This document shows positions 24,668 to 58,519 of a stretch of 64,000 bases of DNA, in pieces. A program made the position numbers and the translations under genes. Each line of letters begins with the position of its first letter. Positions within the stretch are counted from its first letter, which is position 1. The stretch comes from an uncultured Acetatifactor sp. (GTDB lineage: Bacteria; Bacillota; Clostridia; Lachnospirales; Lachnospiraceae). The DNA lies in NCBI GenBank assembly GCA_947588705.1, contig CANPYT010000004.1:1-64000 (forward strand). Reading direction: 5' to 3'. The notes beneath the pieces are model-generated. The model had not been told where the DNA came from. It worked only from the letters and a program-made list of their open reading frames with translations, and made no database searches.

Positions 24668-27600
24668 AATCCTTTTCTGTCAGGATGATCATGTCCTCTT
24701 CATCATACCGCTTTGCCAACAAAATATCAATAAAATGTCCCAGCGTTTTTTTATTGGCGTGACGTATCGCCTCGTCCACGATCTTTTTCACTTCCAGCAC
24801 TGTGACCGCGTGATCTATGGTCTGAAGTTCCTCGATCCGAGTGTGCAGCGCGAGCACACCGAGCTCATCCACAGCATACTCCATCCCCTTGGCGTATTGC
24901 CTGCCAAATGCCACCAGCATATCGTTGCTCAGCGCCTCCACGTTCATCCGGGCGGTAAAGCAGGAGCCCAGCTCCCCGTTTTCCTCCAGCAGCTTCCCAA
25001 TGGCCTTTCTGGTATCCTCCATGACGATGACGATCCCCAGAGACTCCCTCTGAAGTTCTTTATACAGCGCCGCCGCAGTCTCTTGGTTCATACCGGATGC
25101 CTTTTGAATGATGAGCGCACCGTTCTTCAGCTTTCCCAGCGTCTCCTCTACCTTTTTCCCATTCAAAGCCTGGCCGGATATTTTGGCGACTTTTCCGGAA
25201 AAATTACGGTCTGTGATCTGAACCTCCCGGATCAGATTTTTTGCCAGCGTATCCGTGTCCATTCCCTCATCCCCGGTAATAATAATATTCCCGGTATAAG
25301 CCGCAAGGCTGATATTGTCGATGACATTGGCCAGCTGTTCACGGGCTGCCCTGCTCTGAATATACGGCGCAAAGAGCTCTTTTTCTTCCTGGGTCAGCGC
25401 CCGCACCTTAGCTCGCTCGCGCTCCACCTCAGGTTTCCCCATCGGCTTATCCTTCGGATCCGGGGAATCGCTGCCGCCGGCTGTCTCCGGCTCTTCTGAG
25501 GCTTCCTCTTTCTCTGAAAGCCCTCCGCTCTCTTCAAGTCCTTCCGCTTCCTCCGAAGCTTCTTCCTCTTCCCCTGAAAGCCCTCCGGCCTCTTCTAGTC
25601 CTTCCGCTTCCTCCGAAGCTTCTTCCTCTTCCCCTGAAAGCTCTCCGGCCTCTCCAAGTCCTTCCGTTTCCTCTGAAGCTTCTTCCTCTTCCCCTGAAAG
25701 CTCTTCGCTCTCTTCAAATCCTTCCGCTTCCTCCGAAGCCTCTTCCTCTTCCCCTGAAAGCTCTCCGCTCTCTTCAAATCCTTCCGCTTCTTCCGAAGTT
25801 TCTTCCTCTTCCCCTGAAAGTCCTCCGGCCTCTTCTAGTCCTTCCGCTTCCTCCGAAATTTCCTCTTCCCCTGAAAGCTCTCCGCTCTCTTCAAATCCTT
25901 CCGTTTCTTCTGAAGCTTCTTCCGAAATTTCTTCCTCCGGCGTTCCCGCCACCGCCCCGCTCTCCAGCTGTTCTAGCAGTCCGTCTCTCACCGAAGCCTC
26001 AAATTCCGTAAACATGCTGCCTGTCTGGCGCAATACACGCTGGCGCACTTCCGCTTCCCGGCGTTCCTGGCTCTCCTGCTTCAGGCGTTCCCACTCGGAA
26101 AGGACATCTTCGATATTCATCTGGCCTGTGATCTGCTTTTCAACCGTCTCTTTCTCCGGCACAACAAGGCTGATCTGTCCGTCGGACTCCTGTGCCAGTA
26201 CGCCCGCCAGTTCCCTGGGCGGCTGAGCCATCAATACCTGCTCCTCCGCTTTCTCGATGCTCTCAAGGCGCAGCTGATTCATAACGATCTCTGCGGTCTC
26301 GTCTTTTACCTGCTTTTTTGACGCCTCACTTTTTTCCCCGGCAGATAATTCCCGTTTTTTCACCTCCGGCCCCGGCCCATATCTTCCCGGATCCGTTACC
26401 ACAGGCTCCCCCTTCGATCCGTATCCCTCAGGAACTGTTACCGCAGGCTCTGGCTCATACCCTTCCTCTTCCGTTGCTGCGGGCTCCGCTTCCGGCCTAT
26501 ATTCTTCCGCATCCGGCACTGCGGTCTCCGCTTCCGGCACGTACCCTTCCGCTTCCGTTACCGCAGGCTCCGAAGCCGGTTCATATCCCTCCAGATCCGG
26601 CACGGTGACTTCCGGTTTCTCCGTTCCCCGCAGGGTTCCAAGCTCTCCCGTCTCGCCGAAAAACACTTCCGTGCTCTCGATCTGCTCCACGCCATCGTCC
26701 ACATCGTTTTCGCTGATATCCTCGTCTTCCAGTTCCGGGAAATCCAACGATTCGGTCTCCATCATAGGCGCAACGATAGAGCGGGTAATGGCCGCGGAAG
26801 GGTTCTGGTTCTGCTCTTCTCCCAGCACTTCGCGCAATCCCGCCGCCAGCTCCGCCTGGAGATTGATGGTATTGTATTTCCCCATATCCATGGTCTTAAC
26901 ATGAATATCCATCTCCTCCGGCTGTTCCGATGCCGAAGCCGTCTCCGCTTCCACCGCCGGATCCTCCGTCCTGCTTTGCCCCGCCCGGCGGATATTTTCA
27001 TAAACCAGAGTATCTCCCTGCAGCCCGCCCGCTTCATAGGCATCCGCGGTTTCCGGCTGCTGTTGATCCCCGTTCTCTTCGTATCCCGTGTAGACATTGT
27101 CCTCATAAACCGGGACCTGCTCCGGTTCCCGGGCAGGCTCCGCCGCCGCAGCCCTTGGAGCGTAAACCTCAAACCGATGATCGTACCGCTCCTGCTGCTC
27201 CGGGCTCAAAGGCTCATGCAGCATCTTAAGCTCCATAGCCTTGATCACATACTTTCCCTCGCCAAACCAGAGGATCAGCTCGTCACACTCTTCCACGCAT
27301 TTTGTGGCAAGCCCCACACGGTGGTAGAGGTAGGCCAGTTCATACGCCCACTTCTCCCGGTAGTCTCTCTTCTTCAGCTCCTCAAGCACATCGATGCGCT
27401 CTTCCAGCCTCACGTCCTGCGCTTCATACAGCTTATATTGCAGAATATAACACCCGGGATCCTTGGGCGCGACCTGTTTAAATTCATTATAATATTTTAT
27501 CGCCTGCACAAGTTCTTCTGTCTTGATACACAATTCACAGAGAGAATAACAGATCGTTCTGCCGCCCGGCCTTCTTTCATAAGCCAAAAGCAGCATATTC

Positions 27601-31636: not shown

Positions 31637-31799
31637 GCAACAGTTCAGCCCACGCCATTCGCAAAGCCGCGCTGACGCGCTCTCCGGCGCTGTGCGCCTG
31701 CCTTTGCTCATAAAAAGGCGTTCCCTCGGTTGCCGTATCCAGAGGAAAATTCGTGCAAGCACAATTTTCCTCTGAACACGGCAACCGGCTGAACTGTCA
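31637..31799 (-). mobile_element. MITE-like dispersed element, copy B
   Basis: GCAACAGTTCAGCC end; reverse strand carries GGTTGCCG...CAGAGGAAAATTGTGC..GCACGAATTTTCCTCTGG...CGGCAACC hairpin and ATGAGCAAAGGCAGGCGCACAGCGCC module. Confidence 0.85.
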
Positions 31800-31910
31800 G
31801 CCGGATTATTTTAAGAATGACAAATGTCATAAAATAAGGTATACTTTCTCTTGTATCATTTTGTAGCCGGCAGACCCCGCTGCGGCGGAATGAGAGGAAG
31901 CAAAGAATAC

Positions 31911-37582: not shown

Positions 37583-39298
37583 TCAGCGCCGCACGTCCAT
37601 GCGTACCAGCTCCCTGCAGCGGTTCAGCGCCGCATAAAGCTCCTGCCTCCGGGGCATGGCAAGATTTCCCGGGATATCCCCGCCGCAGAACGCGGCAAAA
37701 CCTTTCTCTTCCACTCCCTTATACAAGTTTTCCACAGCTTCGCGCAGGGTACGATTTCCATCAAAAACATGCAGCTTCATATATTTCAACATATGTGCCA
37801 GCGTTGTCAACTGTTCCGGGTCCGTCAGCTGCTCCACACACCGCATATCCACCGTCTCCCGGTTGATGGAAAAGCCATCCAGCCCCATCGTCTTCATCTT
37901 GATACGGTCGTCTTTCGCAAAACCGGGATCCCGTCTTATCACCCGCCGGAAAGAGAGCTTGGGAGCTTTCTCCGGTTCCTCCGGCGCCAGCGGAAACAGC
38001 CTTGCCTCCCGCTTGGCCGTTTCCGTGATCTCCGCCGGGCAGTATCGGTTCATCTGGACCACACAGTCCGCCTTGTGAAAATAGGAGCCGGAACTGCCGG
38101 CCACCAGGATCGTGGAGATCCCCCAGTTCTCATAAAGCTCCCGCACCCTGTCGATAAAGGGAATGATCGGCTCCACATCCCGGCTGACCACTCTCTGCAT
38201 CAGCTCATCCCGGATCATAAAGTTAGTGGCGCTGGTATCCTCGTCGATCAGGAAAAGGCCGGACTCCATCTCCATAGCTTCCACCGTAGCCGCCGCCTGG
38301 GAGGTACTCCCGCTGGCATCCTCCGTGGAGAAACAGGAGGTGTCCCTGCCGTTTGGCAGGTTGCGGATAAACATGGAAATGTCCACATTCTGAATACTTC
38401 TGCCATCCTCCGCCCGAAGCTTCATGGCTGTTGCATCCGTGATCACATATTCCCTGCCGTCCCCGGCAATATGATCGTAAACCCCCAGCTCCAACGCTTC
38501 CAGCAGTGTCGATTTGCCATGGTATCCTCCGCCCACGATCAGCGTGACGCCCTTTTTGATCCCCATGCCTTTCAAAGGGCCATGGTGGGGCAGTTCCATC
38601 GTCACCTCCATGGAAGCGGGCGACCGGAAAACCACCGCCTCCTTCATGGGCAGAGACGATACGCCGGATTTTCGGGGCAGGACGGAACCGTTTCCCACAA
38701 AAGCAACCAGGCCAAGCTCCCCCAGCTTCTCCCGGATATACTGCCGGTCATCCGCAAGGTCTGCCACCGCCTCCGGTTCTCCCCGCCCGCAGGAACTGTA
38801 AAGCAGGGTCTGCCTGACACACACAGGAAGGAAGTCGAACAGGATCTTCTGAAGCTCACCGGAATTGATGGTCCTGCCGTTGGCCGGAAACCCTATCTCC
38901 ATGCGAAGGGTAAGATCGCCGCTTGCCGGGTCCACGGTACAGGCGCTGCGGTCCAGCACTTCCTGCCCCGGCTGGCTGACGCCTAAAAGGCCGCTCTTCC
39001 CGGATCCCTTTGCCTTGAAAGAATACTCTTTTATCTTCGCCGCCACCCGCCGCAATAGATAGTCCTGAAACGCGATCCGCCTGTGTTCCGAGGCATAAAG
39101 TTCCCTGTCAAACCCTGCCACCCTGCCCGGCAGGATCAGGCTCACTTTGGAGGGCGATGCAAAGGGATCGCCCTGTACATGATCGATGGACAATACATAC
39201 TGCTGGAACTGATATTTTCCCTTTGTGTCTTTATAGGCCGGATAACTCCTATGATCGATCTGACGCAGCAGATTCTGTAACTCCGCAGCTGATTTCAT
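37583..39298 (-). CDS. ABC-ATPase domain (PF09818-like) protein
   Basis: TLIVGGGYHGKSTLLEALELGVYDHI, LIDEDTSATNFMIRD. Confidence 0.85.
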   Translation of the reverse strand: MKSAAELQNLLRQIDHRSYPAYKDTKGKYQFQQYVLSIDHVQGDPFASPSKVSLILPGRVAGFDRELYASEHRRIAFQDYLLRRVAAKIKEYSFKAKGSGKSGLLGVSQPGQEVLDRSACTVDPASGDLTLRMEIGFPANGRTINSGELQKILFDFLPVCVRQTLLYSSCGRGEPEAVADLADDRQYIREKLGELGLVAFVGNGSVLPRKSGVSSLPMKEAVVFRSPASMEVTMELPHHGPLKGMGIKKGVTLIVGGGYHGKSTLLEALELGVYDHIAGDGREYVITDATAMKLRAEDGRSIQNVDISMFIRNLPNGRDTSCFSTEDASGSTSQAAATVEAMEMESGLFLIDEDTSATNFMIRDELMQRVVSRDVEPIIPFIDRVRELYENWGISTILVAGSSGSYFHKADCVVQMNRYCPAEITETAKREARLFPLAPEEPEKAPKLSFRRVIRRDPGFAKDDRIKMKTMGLDGFSINRETVDMRCVEQLTDPEQLTTLAHMLKYMKLHVFDGNRTLREAVENLYKGVEEKGFAAFCGGDIPGNLAMPRRQELYAALNRCRELVRMDVRR

Positions 39299-39325
39299 TT
39301 TCTCCTCATTTCCTTTCTCTCCTGA

Positions 39326-39556
39326 TCTTTTCTTGATCTTTTCCTGGTCTTTTCTTGGCCTTTTCTTGGCCTTTTCCTGGTCTTTTCTTAGCCTTTTCTT
39401 GGCCTTTTCTTGGCCTTTTCCTGGCCTTTTCCTGGCCTTTTCTTGGCCTTTTCCTGGCCTTTTCCTGGTCTTTTCTTAGCCTTTTCTTGGCCTTTTCTTG
39501 GCCTTTTCTTGGCCTTTTCTTGGCCTTTTCTTGGCCTTTTCCTGGCCTTTTCTTGG
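39326..39556. repeat. 11-bp tandem repeat array, 21 consecutive units without indels
   Basis: Consensus YCTTTTCYTGG; 39326 + 20x11 = 39546 starts the last unit. Confidence 0.97.
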
Positions 39557-39680
39557 CCTGCTTTTGATGTATTGCTCGGAATGGCTCCTTCAGGGGAAAT
39601 ACATCTCGTTCATTATAAACGTTATTTTTTTATAAATCAATAGCTTTACGCCCATGCTTCCCAATGATACAATAGGATTC

Positions 39681-39835
39681 GTAACAGTTCAGCCAGCCGC
39701 CTGATTTGACGGAAAATCGTGCTCGCACGAATTTTCCGTCATGTCTGGCGGCTGGGAGCACCATTTCATGGGCAAGGGTAGGCGCACAGCGCCGGAAAAC
39801 GCGGCTTCGGGAATGGCGCGGGGCTGAACTGTTAC
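39681..39835 (+). mobile_element. MITE-like element, copy C (full, with inner hairpin cassette)
   Basis: GTAACAGTTCAGCC...GGCTGAACTGTTAC; flanks taggattc (39673-39680) / caggattc (39836-39843). Confidence 0.9.
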
Positions 39836-41289: not shown

Positions 41290-41390
41290 GTAACAGTTCA
41301 GCCAGCCGCCATTTCATGAGCAAAGGCAGGCGCACAGCGCCGGAAAGCGCGTAAGCGCGGCTTTACGAACGGCGCGGACTGAACTGTTAC
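41290..41390 (+). mobile_element. MITE-like element, copy D (lacks inner hairpin cassette)
   Basis: GTAACAGTTCAGCC...GACTGAACTGTTAC; exact 8-bp flanking duplication gatttgtc (41282-41289 / 41391-41398). Confidence 0.93.
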
Positions 41391-47746: not shown

Positions 47747-47781
47747 GCAACAGTTTAGTCCGCGGCTGGCTGAACTGTTAC
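47747..47781. mobile_element. Minimal MITE-like element, copy E (35 bp, two ends only)
   Basis: GCAACAGTTTAGTCC...GGCTGAACTGTTAC; exact 8-bp duplication tatcatat (47739-47746 / 47782-47789). Confidence 0.85.
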
Positions 47782-53044: not shown

Positions 53045-53127
53045 CCCCGCGGCGGGCTACGGCTGAGGGAACGCCTTTTTATGAGCAAAGGAAGTCGCGG
53101 AGCGACGAAAAGCGCGTAAACTGCCGC
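53045..53127 (+). mobile_element. Decayed MITE-like fragment, copy F
   Basis: GAGGGAACGCCTTTTTATGAGCAAAGG is identical to the inner module of copy B; followed by GTCGCGGAGCGAC and AAGCGCGTAAA. Confidence 0.75.
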
Positions 53128-55667: not shown

Positions 55668-56726
55668 ATGGCGGAAAAACTCAGGCAAAACAAACTGGCA
55701 ATACTGCTCCTTACGACAGGCGCAGTGTATTTTTTTCTGAAATTTATAGCCCCTCTGACTGCACCGGTACTGATAGCCATGCTTTTTGTGACCATTTTCG
55801 GCCCCCTGCTGCAAAAGCTGCAAAGCCGGCTGCATCTTCACAGACAGGCAGGGGCCCTGTTGCTTCTTTTGATCGCCGGTCTTGTGCTGGGCCTGCTGGT
55901 CTGGGTCCTGTTCTCCTGGATTGTTGGCAGCCTGCCTAACTGGACAGGCGGCCTCGATTCTCTGGAAGAGGCGCTCTCCACCGCCGTCCGCAATATCTGC
56001 AGCACTGTGGGAGATGCCATCGGAATTGACAGCTCCTACCTGGAACAGACTATCCTCGCCCATCTCCAGGAAAGCATCGACTATCTCAGGCAGAGGTTCC
56101 TGCCGGGCGTACTTACCCAATCCCTGGAATATGTCAGGACTCTGGCTGTCCTTGGAGGATTTCTTTTGACTTTCCTCATCGCCACCGTCCTGCTGGCAAA
56201 AGACTATGACGAGATCATGAACCGACTGTTAGACCGGGAAGATTGCCATCTGCTTCTGGAGATCATCTGCGGTATTATCCGGTATATCGCAACTTATGTA
56301 AAGGCCCAGCTGATCATCATGAACATCGTTGGGATCCTGGCGGCCCTGGTCCTCGGCCTGTGCGGAATCCAAAACGGTATCCTATGGGGCCTGCTGGCCG
56401 GGATCCTGGACGCCTTTCCCTTTATCGGCACCGGCGTGATACTGATCCCTCTTGGGATCCAGCAGCTGTTTTACGGCAGTTACGGCAGGGCGGCGGGATG
56501 CCTGCTGCTCTATATCTCCTGCATAGTCATCCGGGAACTTCTGGAACCCAGGCTGATCGGGAAACGAATCGGCGTCTCCCCTATCGCCATTCTGCTTTCT
56601 CTCTACGCCGGAATACAGTTGTTCGGCGTCTGGGGGATCATAGAGGGCCCTCTGGGGTTCGTCATCATCCACCAGACTTACCTCAGCCTGGAACGGCGGT
56701 TTTTCAGTAACAGTTCAGCGGGTTGA
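55668..56726 (+). CDS. AI-2E family transporter (PF01594-like)
   Basis: Multiple TM segments, GLLAGILDAFPFIGTGVILIPLG; stop codon lies inside MITE copy G. Confidence 0.9.
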   Translation: MAEKLRQNKLAILLLTTGAVYFFLKFIAPLTAPVLIAMLFVTIFGPLLQKLQSRLHLHRQAGALLLLLIAGLVLGLLVWVLFSWIVGSLPNWTGGLDSLEEALSTAVRNICSTVGDAIGIDSSYLEQTILAHLQESIDYLRQRFLPGVLTQSLEYVRTLAVLGGFLLTFLIATVLLAKDYDEIMNRLLDREDCHLLLEIICGIIRYIATYVKAQLIIMNIVGILAALVLGLCGIQNGILWGLLAGILDAFPFIGTGVILIPLGIQQLFYGSYGRAAGCLLLYISCIVIRELLEPRLIGKRIGVSPIAILLSLYAGIQLFGVWGIIEGPLGFVIIHQTYLSLERRFFSNSSAG

Positions 56727-56734
56727 ACTGTTAC
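56707..56734. mobile_element. Minimal 28-bp MITE-like element, copy G
   Basis: GTAACAGTTCAGCGGGTTGAACTGTTAC; 8-bp flanks gtttttca (56699-56706) / ttttttca (56735-56742). Confidence 0.85.
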
Positions 56735-56740
56735 TTTTTT
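56707..56740 (+). terminator. MITE-derived intrinsic terminator of the AI-2E family gene
   Basis: 12-bp stem (one G-U), CGGG tetraloop, T6 tract. Confidence 0.85.
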
Positions 56741-56833
56741 CAAAAGCCCGGCACGGAATTAAATTGACGAATCTGGCTCCTTATACTATTATTATAGAAG
56801 AAAATTTCAGACAAAAAGGAGTCCTGATCGATT

Positions 56834-58519
56834 ATGCGTTACTTTATAAAAACCCTGACCGACTATGCCCTGTGCATCTATCTCGTACTGATACTGGGCG
56901 TAATGCCTTTCTACAATCGCGCCGGCTATAGCCACATGGGCACGGACAAAGCTTTTTTCTACAACACCATCACAGTATACATGGGAAGGATCTTTCTGGC
57001 ACTGGTGCTGGTATACCTTGTGATATCGCTAAAGGATCTGCGAAAGCTGACTCTTCGGGATCTCCGCAGACGCCTGTCCGTCACCGACCTGTTTGCCGGT
57101 GCCTACGGACTGGCGCTGATCCTGTCATATCTCCTGTCAAGATACCGGGAAAATGCTCTCTGGGGAGCAAACGGGTGGTATATGGGCTTCTGGCCGCAGA
57201 TGTTCCTCGTCCTGACATATTTTTTTGTATCCAGGCTCTGGGCTCCCAGAAAATGGGTGCTGTACCTGGCCCTTGGGGTATCCACGGCGGTCTTTCTGCT
57301 GGGGTATCTGAACCGTTTCAGCGTGGATCCGCTGAATATGGCCACTTCGGGCCCCCTATTTATTTCCACCATCGGAAACATCAACTGGTACTGCGGGTAC
57401 CTGACCTCCGTATTCTTTGCGGGAGCGGCTCTGCTGTGGCAGGGAATGGGGGAAAAGATATGGAAAAATATCCTATTGTCCCTCTATGTGACGCTCGGCT
57501 TCGGCGCCCTTATAACCCAGGGCAGCGCCAGCGGGCTTGTGGCCTTGTTTGCCGTGCTGCTGGCTCTATTTTGCATGTCGGCGACGGACAGCGGGCGGAT
57601 GCTGATGTTCTGGGTAGAAATGACGCTCCTGGGGATTTCCTGTCTCATCACCGGAATCGTATGCAGGCTGGCTCCCGACAGGCTGAACTATGATTTCGAC
57701 GGTATCGGCCTGTTGATATCCGGATGGTTCCCCATTTTGCTGACGGGAGTATCGGCCCTTGTCTTATTTTGGGTCAGCCGCTGCCGAAAAAAGCAGATTT
57801 ATCCCCAAAAGGCGGCGGTGGCCCTGTCCCGCGCCGCGCTCCTGATCACCGTTTCCGGCATACTTCTCTTTGCGGCCATGGTCCTGATAAACTCCCTCCG
57901 GCCCGGAAGCCTTGGGCCGCTGTCCAAATATTCTGTCTTTACATACAGCCCGGACTGGGGCAGTAACCGCGGTGCCACCTGGGCGGCCGGATGGACTATT
58001 TTTGCAAAACAGAACCTTCTGCACAAGCTCATAGGCGTGGGGCCGGACGCCATGTCGGCCTATCTGGCAAACGACGCCAGCCGGGAGCTGAATTCTTTTA
58101 TCAGCGAAAATTTCCCGAGCCAAGTGCTTACAAACGCACATTGTGAATGGCTGAACGTGCTGATCAACACAGGTCTGCTGGGGCTGGCCGCCTTTGCAGG
58201 CATGATGCTCACCGGAATACGGCGCTTTTTGCGGGAGGCGGGAAAAAACAAGATAGTCTGCGCCTGCGGCTTTTGCCTGCTGGCTTATACCGCCAACAAT
58301 CTTTTCAGCTTTCAGCAGACCATGAATGTGACCACTCTTTTTGCCATTTTTGGTATGGGAAGCGCCTTTCTCCTACAGCGGGAAACGCAGGAAAGCCCCG
58401 TCTCCGCCCATACATCGCCAAACGGCTTAAAGGCCGGGAATAAAAAACCGGCGGCAGGAAATCCCGTTATAAAAAAGCGAAAAACAAGCAGCAACAGGAA
58501 AAACAATAGAAAACGATAG
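56834..58519 (+). CDS. O-antigen ligase-like (Wzy/WaaL) membrane protein
   Basis: Polytopic; LLHKLIGVGPDAMSAYL...NAHCEWLNVLINTGLLGLAAF. Confidence 0.85.
   Translation: MRYFIKTLTDYALCIYLVLILGVMPFYNRAGYSHMGTDKAFFYNTITVYMGRIFLALVLVYLVISLKDLRKLTLRDLRRRLSVTDLFAGAYGLALILSYLLSRYRENALWGANGWYMGFWPQMFLVLTYFFVSRLWAPRKWVLYLALGVSTAVFLLGYLNRFSVDPLNMATSGPLFISTIGNINWYCGYLTSVFFAGAALLWQGMGEKIWKNILLSLYVTLGFGALITQGSASGLVALFAVLLALFCMSATDSGRMLMFWVEMTLLGISCLITGIVCRLAPDRLNYDFDGIGLLISGWFPILLTGVSALVLFWVSRCRKKQIYPQKAAVALSRAALLITVSGILLFAAMVLINSLRPGSLGPLSKYSVFTYSPDWGSNRGATWAAGWTIFAKQNLLHKLIGVGPDAMSAYLANDASRELNSFISENFPSQVLTNAHCEWLNVLINTGLLGLAAFAGMMLTGIRRFLREAGKNKIVCACGFCLLAYTANNLFSFQQTMNVTTLFAIFGMGSAFLLQRETQESPVSAHTSPNGLKAGNKKPAAGNPVIKKRKTSSNRKNNRKR

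Follow-up and report, generated by a model that had tools for sequence, protein, structure and literature searches.

Fixed 8-bp target duplications are made by many DDE transposases. The IS66 family has an 8-bp target duplication and ends that start with GTAA, and REP elements, which are mobilised by the tyrosine transposase RAYT, have no target duplication. In Coxiella, QMITE1 copies range from 39 to 400 bp and form an internal-deletion series (PMC10969869). In pneumococci, 36 CDSs end at a stop codon provided by a BOX repeat, with no clear truncation of the proteins, and the pneumococcal SPRITE repeat looks like a Rho-independent terminator located close to the ends of genes (PMC3049150). 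In Neisseria, terminators are formed by inverted pairs of the DNA uptake sequence (PMC3049150).

The locus described here lies in a 64,000-nucleotide stretch of DNA from an uncultured Acetatifactor sp. (the window), where a 28-bp palindrome, copy G, occupies the end of an AI-2E family gene. The features of the locus are as follows.

55668-56726, + strand: ORF of the AI-2E family transporter (PF01594), a membrane protein of 352 aa; its last residues, SNSSAG, and the TGA lie inside copy G and its edge.
56699-56706, unstranded: left target-site copy, GTTTTTCA.
56706-56740, + strand: terminator-like hairpin, a 12-13-bp stem (4 G-C) followed by T6.
56707-56734, unstranded: copy G, the 28-bp element, sequence GTAACAGTTCAGCGGGTTGAACTGTTAC; left end GTAACAGTTCAGC runs into right end CGGGtTGAACTGTTAC, overlapping it by 1 base.
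56735-56742, unstranded: right target-site copy, TTTTTTCA, 7/8 identical to GTTTTTCA and the source of the T-tract.
56764-56792, + strand: promoter of the downstream gene, sigma-70-like, TTGACG-17-TATTAT.
56834-58519, + strand: downstream gene, O-antigen ligase-like (PF04932).

The stop codon of the AI-2E ORF is the TGA at 56724-56726, within copy G, and the downstream promoter starts 29 bp past the end of the element. The target-site duplication (TSD) around copy G is 8 bp long with one mismatch and is of low complexity, and the 28-bp sequence itself occurs once in the 2.88-Mb genome. A preliminary description of this DNA had reported the same sequence, coordinates, ORF end and hairpin, and had called the element two fused ends. 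This is borne out: 13 bp of copy G correspond to one end and 16 bp to an opposite end that is common, the two overlapping by one base.

We compared 48 loci, including that of copy G, drawn from 138 genomes of the genus. The remaining 47 all come from other species, the closest ortholog having ~82% protein identity. The palindrome is absent from the end of the AI-2E gene in 47/47, and none of these loci has a terminator-like hairpin (stem at least 8 bp) in the same interval, the locus of copy G being the sole case among the 48. These orthologous loci of other species thus provide the empty site in relatives by which a MITE is recognised. In close relatives, the AI-2E proteins can be aligned up to an RR pair near the end, beyond which follows a short variable tail, and the stop codon lies within the TTGACG of the downstream promoter or just ahead of it; TTGACG-17-TATnAT is found at the same place in most of them. 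The tail of the closest ortholog (L062) reads ERRFSRKETPTPSSEV, followed by the stop.

Joining the flanks by script, with copy G and one copy of the duplication removed, yields a protein ending in ERRFFKSPARN and a TAA stop adjoining TTGACG, which reproduces the tail given in the preliminary description. That description had also predicted that an alignment of orthologs would recover an ancestral allele without the palindrome and with a KSPARN-like ending. The palindrome is indeed missing throughout, but none of the orthologs compared has the literal KSPARN, as the tail is hypervariable, though the joined tail stops by the promoter as those of the relatives do. The empty orthologous loci, together with a joined tail that stops beside TTGACG, make an insertion of copy G at the end of the AI-2E gene well supported on sequence grounds. 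The same comparison upholds the earlier view of a transposon-like insertion that duplicated its target and brought with it a stop codon and a terminator-like hairpin.

Copy G has many counterparts in the genome. The family ends are GTAACAGTTCAGC, the end motif also being written GTAACAGTTCAG. The 2.88-Mb genome contains 102 exact matches to the 12-mer end and 0 to the reversed control word, and the 13-mer end with at most 2 mismatches occurs 11 times in the 64-kb window against 0.86 expected. From stretches around the genomic places of the 12-mer end, 46 two-ended copies were taken; their modal length is ~164 bp, and others measure 28, 32, 35, 50, 77 and 87-105 bp. The flanking 8-mers match at 7/8 or better in 24/46 copies, compared with 0.24% when flanks of different copies are paired. 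This matching peaks at exactly 8 bp with almost no signal at 7 or 9, which indicates a fixed 8-bp target duplication. Terminal inverted repeats common to many copies and a TSD of fixed length, both of which mark a MITE, are therefore present in the family, with copy G itself matching at 7/8. Four sister copies lie in the window.

31637-31800, unstranded: MITE copy of 164 bp, degenerate, with no clear TSD.
39681-39835, unstranded: MITE copy of 155 bp, TSD 7/8.
41290-41390, unstranded: MITE copy of 101 bp, perfect 8-bp TSD GATTTGTC.
47747-47781, unstranded: mini-copy of 35 bp, perfect 8-bp TSD TATCATAT.

More degenerate fragments that resemble this family are found at 682-762 and 53074-53116. 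The 155-bp and 101-bp copies, each with its own 8-bp duplication, flank what by eye is a MATE-family-like transporter gene (ORF to 41280). The window also contains tandem 11-bp units in 22 registers at 39265-39616, just upstream of the 155-bp copy, tandem 60-bp repeats at 25442-25921, and 42-bp repeats, possibly coding, at 26371-26574.

The right part of copy G is CGGGCTGAACTGTTAC with one substitution, and CGGGCTGAACTGTTAC is the second commonest end among the resident copies (13 counted). Because copy G matches two resident-copy ends, an internal deletion suffices to account for it, and the best reading of its sequence is a resident 164-bp MITE that lost its interior. The phrase '28-bp mobile unit' in the preliminary description accordingly goes too far, as there is no sign that copy G moved as 28 bp. 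Copy G would instead be a minimal form, with its interior deleted, in a family of non-autonomous DNA transposons (MITEs) whose ends are GTAACAGTTCAGC and whose TSDs measure 8 bp. A MITE copy probably entered a T-rich octamer at the last AI-2E codons, ~20 bp before the old stop, and all but its two ends would have been lost through deletion at the 1-base overlap, either before or after insertion; both end sequences are observed, whereas any order of deletion and insertion is one that we infer. For the AI-2E gene, the insertion would have meant a new stop codon and six different residues in the tail. In the RNA, the two ends of copy G would pair into a hairpin, with the U-tract derived from the duplicated target. 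To this account as a whole, in which an internally deleted MITE copy inserted, replaced the tail and stop codon, and probably supplied a one-way terminator, we assign a probability of roughly 0.82.

Similarly short forms are found well beyond this locus. Within the genus, 23/138 genomes contain two ends spaced 0-28 bp apart, a single genome having as many as 27 such copies (reversed control 0), and the sizes of the short forms cluster at 28-32 bp. Among 61 distinct short copies in the genus, the 8-bp TSD is perfect in 23 and has at most 1 mismatch in 32 (controls 0 and 0.08%), and no TSD signal is seen at other lengths. When one genome per species was scanned, the matches listed included short forms, going by record names, in Fusicatenibacter, Blautia, Acetatifactor muris, [Clostridium] symbiosum, Parablautia, Mediterraneibacter, Catenibacillus and others. 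The solitary copies among the matches listed in that scan have an exact 8-bp TSD in 27/102 cases (control 0). Different sites within one genome have short-form cores in common. By a simple ORF rule, a neighbouring ORF takes its stop codon from the short copy in 17/121 solitary cases, a figure that reflects rough gene calls and a sample that is not random.

The 28-32-bp forms made of two fused ends are thus a discrete class across gut Lachnospiraceae, with TSDs of exactly 8 bp. Our search of the open full-text literature returned no paper on bacteria containing the end motif, and within that scope the MITE family and its 28-32-bp scarred class appear undescribed. Several longer elements, of ~130-190 bp, have three end motifs: one end is formed by a 28-32-bp palindrome, the third motif lies at the opposite end, and the TSD encloses the whole (loci L258-L260, L283, L285, L295, L334 and L358); these represent a possible route to short forms.

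At the AI-2E gene itself, the consequences for the protein are small. Its length is 352 aa with or without copy G, and only the last six residues change, all of them outside the Pfam domain (residues 12-338 of 352). To say that the insertion 'rewrote' the C-terminus is therefore an overstatement; the change affects a hypervariable tail and is minor, and the effect of copy G at the locus appears modest. The hairpin has a predicted folding energy of -15.7 kcal/mol (z = -4.8) and is directly followed by T6, the arrangement of an intrinsic terminator. However, only 4 of its 12-13 pairs are G-C, so that the stem is not G+C-rich and 'textbook terminator', an earlier label, is generous. A terminator-like site is predicted at 56706-56735 on the + strand only, the opposite direction having no T-tract. 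Judging from these predictions, the hairpin is probably a one-way terminator of the AI-2E transcript, placed before the conserved downstream promoter.

The insertion could also be neutral, with a hairpin that does not terminate and a change of stop codon without effect, both tolerated at a permissive gene end. This reading concerns effect rather than origin and therefore overlaps with the account of an inserted, internally deleted MITE. It fits the hypervariable tail of the orthologs, the unchanged protein length, the untouched promoter of the next gene and the mostly intergenic position of short family members, but at least partial termination would be expected of a perfect 12-13-bp stem followed by T6. 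Edge T-tracts also weigh against neutrality, being moderately enriched at short copies (43/121 versus 101/484 nearby positions, Fisher p = 0.0012, in a non-random sample with crude gene calls). We regard neutrality as possible, though on the unlikely side.

Somewhat less probable still is that copy G was already just 28 bp long when it inserted, with the ultra-short form itself serving as a substrate for a transposase. The discrete 28-32-bp size class in many Lachnospiraceae and the perfect 8-bp TSDs at different sites (23/61 and, among the matches listed, 27/102 exact, controls 0) would suit such an origin, as would the cores common to sites within a genome. Yet longer elements carry the same palindrome together with a third end motif, and recombination of their direct 12-bp ends gives an identical short form. 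As this collapses a long element in place and keeps both TSD and core, shared cores are no proof that the short form jumps. In addition, copy G is what a simple deletion within the local 164-bp MITE would leave, and ends 4 bp apart would presumably be hard to synapse. For copy G we thus favour deletion or collapse over transposition of the short form, and many of the 28-32-bp forms may be in-place collapses of longer elements with a third end. The wider proposal is similarly doubtful. Under it, 28-32-bp elements, consisting of two 12-bp ends around a 4-8-bp spacer, would be genuine substrates of transposition, spreading in Lachnospiraceae and planting stops and hairpins at gene ends; if true, the minimum size of a mobile unit with 8-bp TSDs would lie well below the accepted range.

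It is very improbable that the AI-2E gene simply has a native intrinsic terminator here, of an ordinary kind and with only a secondary likeness to the repeat. The place, direction, T-tract and predicted hairpin of the palindrome are right for one, but each of its arms coincides with the exact ends of the family, which has >100 end motifs and 8-bp TSDs. Moreover, none of the 47 orthologous loci in other species shows a terminator-like hairpin, and the stem is A+T-rich.

Several known families were considered as the source or identity of these repeats. The 8-bp TSD and GTAA-type ends recall IS66, a likeness that serves as a lead only. A search with PF03050 found no IS66 transposase in the draft genome, and the IS66 loci examined in the genus have no paired GTAACAGTTCAGC ends, leaving an IS66 origin of the MITE family unsupported. 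Among the retrieved loci, which are genome stretches, no element longer than 274 bp combined these ends with an exact TSD, as an autonomous partner would. The 8-bp TSDs do not fit an identity as REP elements.

The 164-bp MITE also resembles the Clostridiales-1 RNA of Rfam (RF01699) in its two-hairpin layout, with full-length model matches of 31-44 bits. True members in the genus differ: their ends are of other types, such as GATACC and TGATGCC, and they show no trace of a TSD. With a best score of 44.1 bits in this genome against a gathering score of 48, and with different ends and no TSD, RF01699 was rejected as the identity of the long form. An Rfam scan of the copy G interval gave no match. 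Matches to RF01699 below threshold lie at loci L128-L150 in the same genome and L151-L180 in the genus. True copies of RF01699, which is annotated as an sRNA, are highly repeated, with 18 in one genome, and this is odd for an sRNA gene.

The significance of these observations lies mainly in a widespread Lachnospiraceae repeat with a reproducible minimal form and exact 8-bp scars, rather than in the locus of copy G. The short class makes testable both the minimum size of a mobile unit and the notion that remnants serve as ready-made cassettes of stop codon and terminator at gene ends.

Compared with described repeats, copy G is less singular than the preliminary description held when it called such a combination unusual, because BOX and SPRITE show that repeats supplying stops or terminators were already known. 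Their sequences differ from that of copy G, however, and SPRITE has an 18-bp duplex and its own long T-rich tract, whereas the T-tract of copy G comes from the target duplication. The Neisseria DNA uptake sequence pairs are alike in that an inverted repeated word of 10-12 bp forms a terminator hairpin (PMC3049150), but here the pairs are flanked by 8-bp TSDs and are linked to full-length mobile repeats. Coxiella QMITE1 is like the family of copy G in being non-coding and multicopy, in having terminal inverted repeats and direct repeats where it has inserted, and in showing a size gradient through internal loss (PMC10969869). The smallest QMITE1 quoted is 39 bp and the general range is 50-500 bp (PMC10969869), whereas in the family described here forms of 28-32 bp with 8-bp TSDs are common.
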